NCBI RefSeq assembly: GCF_000020525.1
Contig: NC_011026.1
Span: 496,001 to 560,000, forward strand
Length of the DNA stretch: 64,000 bases
Direction of reading: 5' to 3'
DNA from: Chloroherpeton thalassium ATCC 35110
Lineage (GTDB): Bacteria > Bacteroidota > Chlorobiia > Chlorobiales > Chloroherpetonaceae
Below the pieces are notes generated by a model. The model worked only from the letters and a program-made list of their open reading frames with translations. It had not been told where the DNA came from and searched no databases. The position numbers and the translations under genes were made by a program. Below are positions 12,280-21,976 of the stretch, piece after piece (positions within the stretch are counted from its first letter, which is position 1; each line of letters begins with the position of its first letter).

Positions 12280-13140
12280 TTAGAGGTGCTCGATTTCTTG
12301 AGCTGTCAGTCCAGTAATTTCTGATATTTCCTGAATCGGCATGCCTTTCGCCTTCAACACTCTGGCGATTTCATAATTTCTTTGCTCACAGCCTGCTTTT
12401 TGGCCTTCAAGCCAGCCTTCCTCTTTCGACGTATCCACAACATTTTTCATGTCGCGGTAATATTTCAAGCTCTCTTCGTAGGCGACGAGTTCATTTTTGG
12501 AAAACTTTGCAATTTCCGCTGCTTCAAACAATTTCTCAAAAATTTTTTCCTGAAACTTTGTCGGCCTCTTTTGCAATTGCGACAAATGGCGAAAAACATA
12601 CAACCATTTATCAAACTGCGTTTCCAGCTCGGCTTCCGTTTTCTTGAATTTTGGCAACTCGATGTAGATGAATTTCAGCTTATCGGAAAAACTTCGCTGC
12701 GCTGATTTTTTTAACGCCACAACATGAATTAGTTCAGCGTCCAATTTGTGATCATCGAATATGAAATCTAAAATGCCAACCGTATAAACCGGCTCTAATT
12801 TGTCATCCCAATTGCCGCGTTTGGCCTGTTCCTGAATCGGAAATGACGCGTAATAAATGCTTCGGTCTTTGAAATAATTTTGCTTGGCTTTTTGCACTTC
12901 CACAATGAAGCGCTCGCCCGACTGCCCGACGCAATACACATCGAAGATCGCTTTTCTATCCAATTCCTGTTGCCCGACATGCTCATTTTTGGAATAGCTC
13001 AACTCTTGAATTTGATGTTTTTCGGGTAAAATTTGGTTGAGAAAATCCATCAATAAGATCTTATTCGGCTCAGTTCCAAACAGCTTTTTGAAGCCAAAAT
13101 CCGTCAGCGGATTGATATATTTTTCCTGCAAATAGCTCAT
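12280..13140 (-). CDS. Rpn/PD-(D/E)XK nuclease family transposase-like protein
   Basis: 286 residues. The N-terminus (YINPLTDFGFKKLFG...KILLMDFLNQIL) is the hallmark of the PDDEXK nuclease family PF12784, related to recombination-promoting nucleases (Rpn). The nuclease core is visible as D67 (AIFDVYC) and EVQK at 81-84. The C-terminal 50 residues form a helical tail ending in GMPIQEISEITGLTAQEIEHL, a small helix-turn-helix-like segment typical of these proteins. Copies are usually numerous per genome and behave as accessory DNA; RpnA-type proteins promote RecA-independent recombination in E. coli. It lies 82 bases downstream of ecfT in the same direction, though a shared transcript is uncertain. 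Confidence 0.85.
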   Translation of the reverse strand: MSYLQEKYINPLTDFGFKKLFGTEPNKILLMDFLNQILPEKHQIQELSYSKNEHVGQQELDRKAIFDVYCVGQSGERFIVEVQKAKQNYFKDRSIYYASFPIQEQAKRGNWDDKLEPVYTVGILDFIFDDHKLDAELIHVVALKKSAQRSFSDKLKFIYIELPKFKKTEAELETQFDKWLYVFRHLSQLQKRPTKFQEKIFEKLFEAAEIAKFSKNELVAYEESLKYYRDMKNVVDTSKEEGWLEGQKAGCEQRNYEIARVLKAKGMPIQEISEITGLTAQEIEHL

Positions 13141-16903: not shown

Positions 16904-16981
16904 TGACAATGATTTTGTTGTTAAAAGTTTTTGACAACAAACTTGTTGTCATTTATATTTGACAATAATTTTGTTGTCAAA
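16904..16981. promoter_or_regulatory. three tandem palindromes on a 28-bp period, probable operator
   Basis: The core TGACAA recurs at 16904, 16932 and 16960, exactly 28 bases apart, each followed by a TTGTTGT arm. The middle copy is a perfect inverted repeat: TGACAACAA (16932-16940), 2-base spacer, TTGTTGTCA (16943-16951). The third has arms TTTGACAA (16958-16965) and TTGTCAAA (16974-16981). The first is imperfect. The last copy ends 16 bases before the ATG of the ATPase gene, so a protein bound there would block its promoter or translation start. No obvious repressor gene lies next to it. Confidence 0.7.
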
Positions 16982-16997
16982 ACAAAAGGAGGGCAAA

Positions 16998-18206
16998 ATG
17001 GCATGGATAAGACCGAAAACGATTACCGGCCCGCCGGCAGAAGGTGAGCGTTACCTCAGACGAGAGTATATCAACAGCGGGTTTTGGCATCACATAAAAA
17101 GCGGCGCGCATATTGTTTTCTCAGCGCCCCGCCGTGTGGGCAAAACCTCGATTATGAAGGATTTGGCGAAAAATCCGCCCGAAGGCATTCTTGCGTTTTA
17201 TGACATCATTGAATCCGATAAGACGCAAAAAGATCTTTTCAAGCGGCTGTTCAATCTTTTGCTTGAAAGGACAAAAACACATGAAAGACTTTTTGAACGC
17301 ATTCGTCAATATTTGAAGGAAATAAAAATCGGCGGCGCTTCTGTAACTGGAGAAGCCGACTCAATCACAGGCGGGATTAATTTTGACAAAGTTGAACTTG
17401 ATTACAAAAATGAGTTACTTCGCTTAATTGAGCATCTTGGCAAAGAAAAAGTCCGCATTGTTTTTCTCTTGGACGAATTTCCCGAAGTAATTCGTTCCAT
17501 AGAACTTAGTGAGGGACAGCAGACGGCAATTGATACCCTGCACACGCTACGAGAAATTCGGCAGCACGAAAAGTTCAAAAACTTCACCTTCGTCTTTGCC
17601 GGCTCTATCGGGATTCATCATGTGGTGGCTTCTTTGGAGAGACCCGCGCTAATCAATGATCTTCATCCCATTCATGTTGAACAACTCACGAATGATGAGG
17701 CGCACGAACTCTTGGCGCAACTCCTCGACGGCGCCACCATGCAAATCGGCGATGACAAAAAAGCGTATTTCCTGCGAAAAATTGACCATCGGCTGCCCTA
17801 TTACATTCAATTGATGGTTGAAAAGTGCGACGAAATTTTGAACAAAGCAGGCCGCGACGTTTTAACAAACCATGACATTGACGCGGCGTTTGAAATGATC
17901 ATCAAAGAAGGCCGAAACTTTGACGATTGGGAATCGCGCTTGAAAAGATACGTTCAGCGCGAAGATGCGAAATATTGCATCGGCATTCTCACCCGTTGCG
18001 CTCATAGCGAACCGTATTCTATTCAGGAAGCTTACAATTATTCCAAGAAGGATGTTCCTGCCGCGCCATATAAGCAACTTTTAGACAACGTGCTGATAAA
18101 AGACGGCTACCTTGTTGAAGAAAATCGTAGCTACCGTTTCCTTTCGCCCTTTTTGAAAGAATGGTGGAAACATCGTCACCCGAAATTTGAAATTGAAGAT
18201 TTATAA
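16998..18206 (+). CDS. AAA ATPase with C-terminal winged-helix-like region (archaeal-ATPase/MNS type)
   Basis: 402 residues. ATG at 16998 is chosen because AAAGGAGGG precedes it at good spacing; an upstream TTG at 16959 falls inside the palindromes. Walker A is SAPRRVGKTS (42-51), Walker B VFLLDE (155-160), and the sensor-1-like strand is FTFVFAGSIG. The C-terminal 100 residues (IGILTRCAHSEPYSIQEAY...LIKDGYLVEENRSYRFLSPFLKEWW) look like the winged-helix end of the archaeal-type P-loop ATPase family (PF01637-like). Members of this family are common in accessory DNA and their function is mostly unknown. The strong ribosome binding site and triple palindrome suggest tight control. Confidence 0.8.
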   Translation: MAWIRPKTITGPPAEGERYLRREYINSGFWHHIKSGAHIVFSAPRRVGKTSIMKDLAKNPPEGILAFYDIIESDKTQKDLFKRLFNLLLERTKTHERLFERIRQYLKEIKIGGASVTGEADSITGGINFDKVELDYKNELLRLIEHLGKEKVRIVFLLDEFPEVIRSIELSEGQQTAIDTLHTLREIRQHEKFKNFTFVFAGSIGIHHVVASLERPALINDLHPIHVEQLTNDEAHELLAQLLDGATMQIGDDKKAYFLRKIDHRLPYYIQLMVEKCDEILNKAGRDVLTNHDIDAAFEMIIKEGRNFDDWESRLKRYVQREDAKYCIGILTRCAHSEPYSIQEAYNYSKKDVPAAPYKQLLDNVLIKDGYLVEENRSYRFLSPFLKEWWKHRHPKFEIEDL

Positions 18207-18231: not shown

Positions 18232-18790
18232 ACAAATGAGTGCCGTCCTGTGCCGGTTTTTTCCAATGCGGAAAAAGATCAATCGCTGAATAGCAAACGG
18301 CGCATTGTCATGCTGAGCCTTCTGAGGCGAAGCATCCATTTTTTCACATAACGTTGGATTCTTCGGCTAAGAAGCCTCAGAATGACATGATTCTGTTTTG
18401 CCGTCGGTAACGAGACGAAGACGATTAAGCAAATGAGTGCTGTTCTGAGCCGGATTTTTCCAATGCGGAAAAAGCTCTATCGCTGAATAGCAAACGGCGC
18501 ATTGTCATGCTGAGCCTTCTGAGGCGAAGCATCCATTTTTTCACATAACGTTGGATTCTTCGGCTAAGAAGCCTCAGAATGACATGATTCTGTTTTGCCG
18601 TCGGTAACGAGACGAAGACGATTAAGCAAATGAGTGCTGTTCTGAGCCGGTTTTTTCCAATGCGGAAAAAGCTCTATCGCTGAATAGCAAACGGCGCATT
18701 GTCATGCTGAGCCTTCTGAGGCGAAGCATCCATTTGTCACATAACGTTGGATTCTTCGGCTAAGAAGCCTCAGAATGACATGATTCTGTT
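18232..18790. repeat. 2.9 copies of a 197-bp tandem repeat containing an imperfect hairpin
   Basis: Units begin at about 18232, 18429 and 18626, exactly 197 bases apart, and are almost identical. Each contains TGTCATGCTGAG...GAAGCATCC followed about 18 bases later by GGATTCTTCGGC...CTCAGAATGACA, i.e. two roughly 32-base arms that fold into a long imperfect hairpin. The same arm sequences recur in the arrays at 21988-22612 and 24277-25070. The block separates the two ATPase genes, and its last unit runs up to the 5' end of the second. Confidence 0.9.
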
Positions 18791-18874
18791 TTGTCATCAC
18801 GAAGCCATTATCTACGCGCACTTCGTCTTCTCAGCTGGGCACGATATAAGTTTGAACATTTAGCTATAAGACAC

Positions 18875-21800
18875 ATGAACCCGATTACATTTTATCAGGC
18901 GGCGCATCTTACGGACGAAGAAGTCATACGCCAATTTGTCGTTCGGAAAAAAGAATTTGAGCGCGTCATCTCCGAAGTTCGGCGCGACGATATGCTGGGG
19001 TCGATACAGCACTATATTTTTGTCGGGCAGCGCGGGAGCGGCAAATCCACATTGCTCCGGCGCATTTTGGCCGAGATAAATACGGACGAGGCGCTTTCCG
19101 AAAAGCTTGTCGCCATTTATCCGAGCGAGGAACAGGCGGGCATTTATCGCCTGGACGACCTTTGGGATCGGGTTTGTCAGGAACTCCGGGAAATGAGATT
19201 TGAGACGGAGGAAGTCAAGTGGGAGGCGTATGAAAAGGACCACACCGGCTTTGCCAAAGCCCTTTACGGCGCGATGCAAAAAAGCCTTGCCGAAAAGGGC
19301 AAAAAGCTGGTTCTCCTGATCGACAATATCGACCGCATTTTTGACAGCATCAAGGTCAGCGATGATACGCATCTCTTCCGCGAACAGCTTATCAAATACA
19401 AGGATGTGCGCATCATCGGGGGCAGCACGCGCCTGAGCGAGCATTTTTGGCAATATGATCAGCCGTTTTACGAGTTTTTCCGAACGCTCCCGCTTGAACC
19501 GATGACGGAAGCCGAACTGAAGGAGTTGCTCCTATTTTGGAGCGATTTTCTCGGCGAACCCGACCTGAAAAAATTTGTAGAGAACAATCCGGGAAAGCTC
19601 AACGCCGTGCGCATCCTGAGCGACGGCATGCCTCGCACCATGCTCGGCTTGGTAGAGCTTTTTCTGAAGCAGCCCGACCGGCACGGCTACGATTACCTCC
19701 GCTACATTCTTGACCGCGCCACGCCGGTTTATCAGGAGCGGCTCGGCAAGCTTTCCCCGATGCAACAAAAGGTGGTGCTTGAACTTTCGTTTTTCTGGGA
19801 TGTCGCCAAGGTCAAAGACCTTTCGCAGGCGGCGCGTGTGGAGAGCAAAACGCTTTCCGCCTTGCTCGGCCAACTGACGGACTTGCAGATTGTGGAAAAA
19901 ATAAAAGGCACGGGCAAAAACCACCTTTACCGCCTGAAGGAACGCTTTTTTAACCTCTGGCTGATTATGACACAGGGCGGCCCGAGGGAGAAAAGCAGGG
20001 TAAAGTGGCTCACCATCTTCCTTGAAACTTGGTACGACGCAACCGAACTGAAAACAATTTACAGGGATTTTTCCACCCGATTGACCGAAGGAAAAATCAC
20101 CCCCGACCGCGCCGTCGTGATGACAAAGGCGCTGGCGCATTGCAGATATTTATCTATGGATGAACGGGATGAACTGTTAGAACAAACGAAAAAGTTGATA
20201 GGTAATCGCAAAGAGCATCTTGATTTTTTGCCGCCGAAAGCCGGTGACGTTTTTAAAAATGTGATTGGATTGATCGAGCAAAAGCGTTTGGATGAGGCAC
20301 AAAAAGAACTTGACAGCATTGAGCAAGATGGTGCTCTAAAACAGATGCTTCAGGGGCTTATTTATGACGAAAGTGGAAATTTCAATGAGGCCGAGAAATT
20401 CTATTTGATGGCTATTGACAATGGAGATGTTGGTGCCATGTTTGGCCTTGCCAATCTATACAAAGAGACGAACCGGAAAGAAGAGGCCGAGAAATACTAC
20501 TTGATGGCTATTGACAATGGAGATGTTCAGGCCATGAACAACCTTGCCAACATCTACCAAAAGACGAACCGGAAAGAAGAGGCCGAGAAATTCTACTTGA
20601 TGGCTATTGACAATGGAGTTGCTCAGGCCATGAACAACCTTGCCATTCTCTATGAAAATACAAACCGGAAAGAAGAGGCCGAGAAATTCTATTTGATGGC
20701 TATTGACAATGGGAATGTTAGTGCCATGTTCAACCTTGCCATTCTCTATGAAAATACAAACCGGAAAGAAGAGGCCGAGAAATTCTATTTAATGGCTATT
20801 GAGAATGGAGTTGCTCAGGCCATGAACAACCTTGCCATTCTCTATGAAAATACAAACCGGAAAGAAGAGGCCGAGAAATTCTATTTGATGGCCATTAAGA
20901 ATGGGGATGTTAATGCCATGAACAACCTTGCCCTTCTCTACCAAGAGACAAACCGGAAAGAAGAGGCCGAGAAATTCTATTTGATGGCTATTGACAATGG
21001 GAATGTTAGTGCCATGACCAACCTTGGTCTTCTCTACCAAGAGACAAACCGGAAAGAAGAGGCCGAGAAATTCTATTTGATGGCTATTGACAATGGGAAT
21101 GTTAGTGCCATGACCAACCTTGGTCTTCTCTACCAAGAGACAAACCGGAAAGAAGAGGCTGAAAAATTCTATTTGATGGCTATTGATAATGGACATGTTC
21201 AGGCCATGCTTGGCCTTGCCAACATCTACCAAGAGACGAACCGGAAAGAAGAGGCCGAGAAATTCTATTTGATGGCCATTAAGAATGGGGATGTTAATGC
21301 CATGAACAACCTTGCCCTTCTCTACCAAGAGACAAACCGGAAAGAAGAGGCCGAGAAATTCTATTTGATGGCTATTGACAATGGAGTTGCTCAGGCCATG
21401 AACAACCTTGCCCTTCTCTACAGAGAGACGAACCGAAAAGAAGAGGCTGAAAAATTCTATTTGATGGCCATTAAGAATGGGGATGTTAATGCCATGAACA
21501 ACCTTGCATTCTTGCTCTATGAGGAAAACCGTAATACGGAAAAAGCTTATTCTCTCATTGTCCGCCACAATGCAACAGAGCAAAAAAGTATAATCTCAAC
21601 GACGCTTGAAATGATTATCGCCGTTTGGTCGGGCAGGCCTGAGCGGCTTGAGTCGGCAGATGAATTGCTTCGAGAAATGGTAGAGAATAAAGATGTTACG
21701 TGGCTTGAACATTTCTTGCGAGAAATTCTAATTCATCATCAGAAAAATGTCGTGTGGGCGTGGTTTCGGCACGCGGAGTTCGGGCAACGTTTGATGGATA

Positions 21801-21976
21801 TGGCGAGGCCGCTTTATTATGCTACGGCGCGGCTTTTGAACAACAACGAAACAGAGGAAACGCTGCTTGCGCAAGCGCCGGAGCTTCGGGAAACCGTTGA
21901 TAAGATTTATAATGATATCATGGAGCGGCAGGAGTTTTATTACGGCAAGGGGAAACAAGCCAGCCCGAGCGCCTAA
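18875..21976 (+). CDS. P-loop ATPase fused to twelve 32-residue Sel1/TPR-like repeats
   Basis: About 1033 residues from ATG 18875 (a TTG at 18791 inside the repeat block is less likely). Residues 1-350 are an AAA/STAND-like ATPase: Walker A GQRGSGKST at 51-59, Walker B LVLLIDNIDR at 145-154, sensor strand VRIIGGSTRLSE. A winged-helix-like region follows at about 310-400 (LSPMQQKVVLELSFFW...LYRLKERFFNLWL). Residues about 505-888 hold twelve consecutive 32-residue units of the pattern EAEKFYLMAIDNGxVxAMNNLAxLYxETNRKE; repeats are nearly identical in DNA (96-bp period). A non-repeated tail of about 145 residues closes the protein. The layout (sensor repeats on an NTPase) resembles STAND/NLR-type signalling or defence proteins; the function is unproven. 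Confidence 0.85.
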   Translation: MNPITFYQAAHLTDEEVIRQFVVRKKEFERVISEVRRDDMLGSIQHYIFVGQRGSGKSTLLRRILAEINTDEALSEKLVAIYPSEEQAGIYRLDDLWDRVCQELREMRFETEEVKWEAYEKDHTGFAKALYGAMQKSLAEKGKKLVLLIDNIDRIFDSIKVSDDTHLFREQLIKYKDVRIIGGSTRLSEHFWQYDQPFYEFFRTLPLEPMTEAELKELLLFWSDFLGEPDLKKFVENNPGKLNAVRILSDGMPRTMLGLVELFLKQPDRHGYDYLRYILDRATPVYQERLGKLSPMQQKVVLELSFFWDVAKVKDLSQAARVESKTLSALLGQLTDLQIVEKIKGTGKNHLYRLKERFFNLWLIMTQGGPREKSRVKWLTIFLETWYDATELKTIYRDFSTRLTEGKITPDRAVVMTKALAHCRYLSMDERDELLEQTKKLIGNRKEHLDFLPPKAGDVFKNVIGLIEQKRLDEAQKELDSIEQDGALKQMLQGLIYDESGNFNEAEKFYLMAIDNGDVGAMFGLANLYKETNRKEEAEKYYLMAIDNGDVQAMNNLANIYQKTNRKEEAEKFYLMAIDNGVAQAMNNLAILYENTNRKEEAEKFYLMAIDNGNVSAMFNLAILYENTNRKEEAEKFYLMAIENGVAQAMNNLAILYENTNRKEEAEKFYLMAIKNGDVNAMNNLALLYQETNRKEEAEKFYLMAIDNGNVSAMTNLGLLYQETNRKEEAEKFYLMAIDNGNVSAMTNLGLLYQETNRKEEAEKFYLMAIDNGHVQAMLGLANIYQETNRKEEAEKFYLMAIKNGDVNAMNNLALLYQETNRKEEAEKFYLMAIDNGVAQAMNNLALLYRETNRKEEAEKFYLMAIKNGDVNAMNNLAFLLYEENRNTEKAYSLIVRHNATEQKSIISTTLEMIIAVWSGRPERLESADELLREMVENKDVTWLEHFLREILIHHQKNVVWAWFRHAEFGQRLMDMARPLYYATARLLNNNETEETLLAQAPELRETVDKIYNDIMERQEFYYGKGKQASPSA
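20387..21538 (+). repeat. 96-bp tandem coding repeats, 12 units
   Basis: In-frame direct repeats inside the ATPase gene. The unit starts GAGGCCGAGAAATTCTA and repeats at 20387, 20483 and on to about 21538. Units differ mainly at the codons for the residues after DNG and around AM(N/T/F)NL, while the rest is almost invariant even at third codon positions. This indicates recent duplication or gene conversion. Confidence 0.9.

Follow-up and report, generated by a model that had tools for sequence, protein, structure and literature searches.

The array and the A-B locus

The window, the whole 64,000-nucleotide stretch that was analysed, carries three palindromes of about 20 bp each, at a period of exactly 28 bp by direct reading, immediately ahead of a gene for a STAND/AAA_22 ATPase (gene A), with a larger NTPase gene (gene B) further downstream on the same strand. 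The features concerned are:

16904..16923, + strand: putative operator palindrome 1, TGACAATGATTTTGTTGTTA (direct reading and motif-free score)
16932..16951, + strand: putative operator palindrome 2, TGACAACAAACTTGTTGTCA (direct reading and motif-free score)
16960..16979, + strand: putative operator palindrome 3, TGACAATAATTTTGTTGTCA (direct reading and motif-free score; extended arms 16958-16981)
16931..16961, + strand: predicted embedded promoter, TTGACA at 16931-16936, 17 bp, TATATT at 16954-16959 (consensus, 11 of 12 matches; placement kept in relatives)
16987..16993, + strand: ribosome-binding-like AGGAGGG (read in the sequence)
16998..18206, + strand: gene A, 402-aa STAND/AAA_22 ATPase, Walker B D-E (Pfam, predicted fold, alignment)
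18233..18793, no strand assigned: 197-bp repeat, 2.9 copies, between A and B (repeat analysis)
18875..21976, + strand: gene B, 1033-aa STAND/ORC-like NTPase with winged helix and TPRs, proposed array reader (Pfam, model, loci)
19757..19936, + strand: codons of the B winged helix, residues 295-354 (model secondary structure; weak ArsR/Csa3-type HTH matches in relatives)
19844..19882, + strand: codons of the proposed B recognition helix, residues 324-336 (model), with K325 at 19847-19849

A preliminary description of this DNA had reported three palindromes with an exact 28-bp period in front of an AAA ATPase, the middle one a perfect 9-bp inverted repeat, the array ending 16 bases before the ATPase start codon and ahead of a ribosome-binding site. 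Direct reading agrees throughout: palindrome 2 has perfect 9-bp arms flanking 2 bp, and extended palindrome 3 ends at 16981, 16 bases 5' of the gene A ATG at 16998, with AGGAGGG lying between. Written as TGACAA/TTGTCA hexamers, the half-sites alternate in orientation every 14 bp. Also in the window, at 12280-13140 on the minus strand, is a gene for a PD-(D/E)XK transposase-family protein (PDDEXK_2). In the genome as a whole, a second palindrome family, TGACAAACGGCGAGTTGTCA-like, has five local copies at G000:C1:480494-481076 and more variants elsewhere.

Both A and B have a P-loop and Walker B core followed by a winged helix, the arrangement that defines a STAND/ORC-like NTPase. In A, the P-loop and the Walker B D-E are present in 81 of 81 proteins, and the predicted structure ends in a C-terminal winged-helix fold (residues about 321-393). 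In B, the winged helix follows the NTPase directly, with TPR or Sel1 repeats C-terminal; the P-loop is intact in the listed forms, Walker B is D-N in all 108 proteins, and only in B is the Walker B glutamate position changed. It can be conjectured from these residues that ATP hydrolysis and switching are split between the partners, A with its Walker B glutamate and B with asparagine. Sequence searches of the PDB gave no more than chance-level matches for A and a weak ORC4 match for B.

The two genes form a conserved pair: of 81 loci, 79 have a homologous B next after A, and the remaining two end at a contig edge. Relatives mostly have the two genes sharing a few bases or all but touching, unlike in the window genome, where B may need read-through or a promoter of its own owing to the inserted 197-bp repeats.

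Conservation, promoter placement and privacy of the site

Homologues of gene A were drawn from two sources, searches of whole genomes (positive in 13 of 198 from Bacteroidota) and a scan of GTDB contigs (80 loci kept of 326), the latter spanning, by record title, Bacteroidota, Campylobacterota, Desulfobacterota, Cloacimonadota, Neomarinimicrobiota, KSB1, Fusobacteriota and others. A first contig scan with a single A protein as query gave no matches, and a search of phages and viral contigs found no A relative. Upstream DNA was examined by a motif-free test, which looks for two or three even dyads at a period of 26-30 with a common but unspecified half-site and counts as a pass only a score above the maximum of 249 dinucleotide shuffles; it was applied to 83 regions (L007, L008, L009 and L020-L099, of which L008 and L036 come from the same genome). 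The preliminary description had staked its reading on orthologous genes sharing the array, and they do: an array precedes 82 of the 83, the one region without an array by this test being that of L085, although A and B are both present there. In real-DNA controls, 4 of 137 other genes of the same loci and none of 78 regions 3' of A pass. When any period from 20 to 60 is allowed, every one of the 80 regions examined settles on 27 (26 regions), 28 (38), 29 (3) or the double (13), and the periods of the controls scatter.

Arrays occur in at least eight phyla with differing motifs, while the half-sites of any one array have a common sequence; the model obtained from the homologue set is TTGACAATAA. 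Half-sites are 12 bp apart within palindromes in 155 pairs (13 bp in one), and 16 bp (66 pairs) or 15 bp (27 pairs) apart between palindromes. Bacteroidota mostly have three copies at 27-28 bp, and other phyla mostly two at 27 bp. Motif comparisons leave out three loci in which the finder settled on dyads between palindromes (L061, L070, L076), as well as L085, L072 (in which A is broken) and L008 (from the genome that also gave L036). Matches in L160 (score from an unrelated inverted repeat) and L101 (AT-rich chance match) were not counted as arrays.

The repeated dyads overlap the gene's own predicted promoter, as located by consensus. In the window, TATATTTG at 16954-16961 also fits the Bacteroidota -7 box, whose consensus is TAnnTTTG. 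Among 56 Bacteroidota-type loci, 45 have this box, and its distance from the dyads takes only a few set values (shuffles: mean 6.2, maximum 12). In the other 20 loci the best sigma-70 match is in or beside the array, its -35 being the TTGACA half-site or its neighbourhood and its -10 lying between palindromes, beside the last palindrome or at a dyad. C at half-site position 8 is commoner in right half-sites (77 of 204) than in left ones (27 of 204), which puts TTTG on the coding strand. It had been argued earlier that a 28-bp period, at 2.7 helical turns, would keep consecutive dimers off a common face and is therefore unusual. This argument is weakened: the hexamer half-sites alternate in 14-bp steps, and the period matches the distance between promoter elements and fits the promoter geometry in each clade.

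Near-exact copies of the site are also private to its locus in the array-bearing genomes checked. Allowing up to three mismatches, the array pattern has six matches in the window, all inside the array (both strands of three copies), a number reached in 1 of 100 window shuffles (mean 0.89), and the motif-free score of the array (z 13.6) is far higher than that of any shuffle. The genome-wide search for the motif proposed in the preliminary description, run here on a single contig of 3,293,456 bp, returned sites with 0-1 mismatch in the array only; sites with 2-3 mismatches are many and scattered, and none is in a 28-bp array among the matches listed. The same confinement of 0-1 mismatch sites holds in all four array-bearing genomes checked (the window genome, G099, G829 and G680). 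A further searched genome, G133, with no known copy of the locus, has scattered 2-mismatch sites only and is not counted among the four.

Covariation of the half-sites and the likely reader

Near-duplicates (90% or 85% identity) were removed before the covariation, host-order and column-ranking analyses, and L132, L157, L149 and L150 are repeats of genomes or arrays already in the set. Motif distance follows ATPase distance (beta 2.76, matched by none of 1000 permutations) and does not follow host order (beta 0.01, p 0.46). Tracking of this kind is by itself no proof of binding, since a gene and the DNA upstream of it are passed on together. The partial correlation of motif with B given A is 0.22, and that of motif with A given B is -0.06; covariation with the motif is not localised to the A winged helix.

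Loci in which B occurs without A were also examined. With B as query, two Bacteroidota orders were searched, with 16 of 300 and 13 of 291 genomes positive, and 31 loci were obtained: 14 have A and the array, and 8 lack A, with an array directly 5' of B in 7 of those 8 (L142 and L143 being near-identical). Of the 31, seven with an A-like gene and one without A lack a 27-28-bp array; L160 passes only through its unrelated inverted repeat, and L140 is too short. The occurrence of arrays before B when A is absent, together with the lack of a partial correlation with A given B, points to B as the predicted reader, probably not the adjacent ATPase A.

Within B, the half-site changes appear to go with changes in the recognition helix. 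For half-site position 7, residue 333 comes out best among 832 columns (adjusted R2 0.82); this involves one clade, and the T333/G7 association is broken by locus L127. In plain single-column ranking the recognition helix is not first overall, 333 leading for motif position 7 only; ranking the columns of A and B jointly was tried and set aside as dominated by phylogeny. Residue 325 sits at the start of the modelled recognition helix. In a table of 105 loci (L132, L149 and L157 excluded, L150 retained; half-sites in 13 counted by a simple pattern instead of the array model), adenine is the commonest base at half-site position 4 in 77 of 82 K325 loci, the five exceptions being L077, L079 and L142-L144, and in 1 of 23 non-K loci. 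All 19 N325 loci have mainly C or G there, and they include a Chitinophagales/Sphingobacteriales clade, L009/L158, Chlorobiaceae and alphaproteobacterial plasmids. The association is no more than suggestive: with only three changes of residue 325 on the tree, a comparison of independent pairs cannot reach significance.

Palindromes of other kinds are found in the wider family. In Chlorobiaceae A-B pairs the repeats are of the CCAAC or the GAATTTATTC type and are spaced differently (spacings here and in the single-gene relatives were read by eye); six of the pairs (L010, L110, L112, L115, L116, L117) have GAATTTATTC-like repeats about 16 bp apart 5' of A. Upstream of four single-gene ATPase relatives (L118, L123, L129, L130) are tandem 14-16-bp palindromes of the GCGAAAATATTCGC type, also about 16 bp apart. 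Taken together, these suggest that having cis-palindromes of their own may be a general habit of these ATPases.

Autoregulation, its rivals and related systems

On the conservation of the array, its period, its overlap with the promoter, its privacy, its linkage to B and its covariation, all read from sequence, we think it probable that the array is an autoregulatory operator, probably read by a repressor, of the conserved A-B operon, with B as the reader. The predicted promoter is overlapped by six alternating half-sites, making three dimer sites. B, a nucleotide switch ending in TPRs, would bind these half-sites through its winged helix; once bound, it would block RNA polymerase and keep the operon at a low level, until a change in B (a TPR ligand, a new nucleotide state or its joining with A) freed the promoter. 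Binding by B, repression through that binding, the protomer count, the signal and what the system is for are supplied by this model and not by the sequence. The preliminary description had offered a self-recognition site as one possibility. At the level of the locus this has good indirect support, since array and locus go together and the array sequence varies with the locus proteins, not with host order; as to the protein doing the recognizing, B is likelier than A.

Could A be the autoregulator, with B merely carried in the operon? A has a C-terminal winged-helix fold and an ORC/Cdc6-like fold, and its single-gene relatives have their own, differently spaced palindromes. We nevertheless consider this improbable, as we do the earlier suggestion that the ATPase itself binds the array: arrays precede B without A in seven of eight loci, the motif-A correlation vanishes (-0.06) once B is taken into account, and the covariation does not settle on the A winged helix. 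Slightly less improbable, and still unlikely, is that B (or A and B together) binds as an activator, its promoter-near sites recruiting RNA polymerase. MalT, a STAND-like activator with a C-terminal HTH, would be the precedent. IniR, going by the available part of its description, is another STAND-like activator (PMC5760070). The palindromes, however, lie over the -35/-10 or -33/-7 elements as well as the likely start site, which suits a repressor, and the promoters are near consensus, so that an activator should be unnecessary.

An unlinked host regulator, another of the early suggestions, is now very hard to credit: the motif follows the locus rather than host order, near-exact sites occur nowhere else in the four array-bearing genomes, and arrays in at least eight phyla have different motifs. 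Equally remote is the idea that the palindromes act as transcript hairpins, in an attenuator or leader control; the middle copy does score as terminator-like and copy 3 is in or near the leader, but most of the array is 5' of the inferred start, the stems are AT-rich, and the half-sites of an array share one sequence, which hairpins do not require. An iteron-type replication origin, also raised at the outset, was rejected: the locus is on a single chromosomal contig, neither A nor B has a Rep match in Pfam, and the dyads are inverted and lie within a promoter.

What the A-B operon is for is a matter for more cautious suggestion. On the Moraxella plasmid pNP7-2 (L100; half-sites TTAACTATAA, 27-bp period) A and B adjoin qatD of the Qat anti-phage system; B adjoins Pycsar and AbiE genes on a Sphingobium plasmid and cyclase and ThiF genes on an Agrobacterium plasmid; WYL and DUF262 genes are near on a Segatella plasmid; and a second Moraxella plasmid has only hypothetical and channel genes as neighbours. 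Of the chromosomal neighbours, examined for 141 of 152, only a few have a PADLOC family match and the majority are ordinary genes; PADLOC has no family for A or B themselves, giving weak partial matches only. With defence neighbours on plasmids set against few such matches on chromosomes, an anti-phage role is hinted at, as a lead and not a result. A bolder version, which we hold to be rather doubtful, is that the two proteins together make an ORC-like, heteromeric AAA+ machine that senses phage or stress and is parked as a hexamer on the six half-sites, 14 bp apart and alternating in orientation, over its own promoter; activating the machine would then be one and the same thing as inducing its operon.

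A STAND/ORC-like ATPase pair found across phyla is now tied to a defined, predicted DNA target, and operator, promoter and candidate specificity residue offer a way into the question of what signal it responds to. Should B prove to be the reader, such STAND switches would act directly on the DNA of their own promoters, and the pairing of residue 325 with position 4 of the half-site would amount to a simple recognition rule.

No published description of the array or of the A-B pair was found in the open-access full-text literature searched. Predicted folds of both proteins resemble MNS/MJ-type STAND NTPases (PAB2304, SSO1545) and ORC1/Cdc6: A matches 2qen with Z 24.4 (rmsd 4.2, 334 aligned) and B with Z 19.7 (rmsd 4.0, 319 aligned), and both also match 2fna, 1w5t and the DNA-bound 2qby and 2v1u, in comparison lists that are reranked Foldseek matches and in which the absence of other folds is uninformative. 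ORC proteins bind replication origins; the likeness to ORC1/Cdc6 is here a fold match only, nothing examined at the A-B locus giving a sign of an origin. Unlike either group, A and B are bacterial and paired in an operon with its own putative operator array, and B has TPRs.

The nSTAND2 systems are described, in the part of the source available, as two-gene mobile counter-invader operons whose products both have a STAND NTPase core and are predicted to form a hetero-multimer, one partner having eroded NTP-binding motifs, with GT4 or HEPN effectors (PMC8195603). The A-B operon likewise has two genes, both with a STAND NTPase core; unlike nSTAND2 so described, A and B both keep intact P-loops, and the B tail is TPR/Sel1; Pfam scans of B from six loci give TPR/Sel1 and AAA/NACHT matches and no GT4 or HEPN. 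An operator array, as in the A-B operon, does not figure in that part of the nSTAND2 description (PMC8195603). MalT-like regulators, which are activators with a C-terminal HTH, combine NTPase, DNA-binding and TPR-like sensor parts in one chain, as B does. The winged helix of B, by contrast, follows the NTPase directly, and its predicted sites overlap its own promoter. IniR, as far as its account goes, has the same three parts in one chain (PMC5760070). The operators of type Ia ParA (PMC8465637) and NanR (PMC8012715), in the available portions of those sources, resemble the array in placing three dimers on a repeated promoter operator. Their protein families are different and their spacing and half-sites unrelated; type Ia ParA, as portrayed there, is nonetheless an ATPase that autoregulates its operon (PMC8465637), as is proposed for B.
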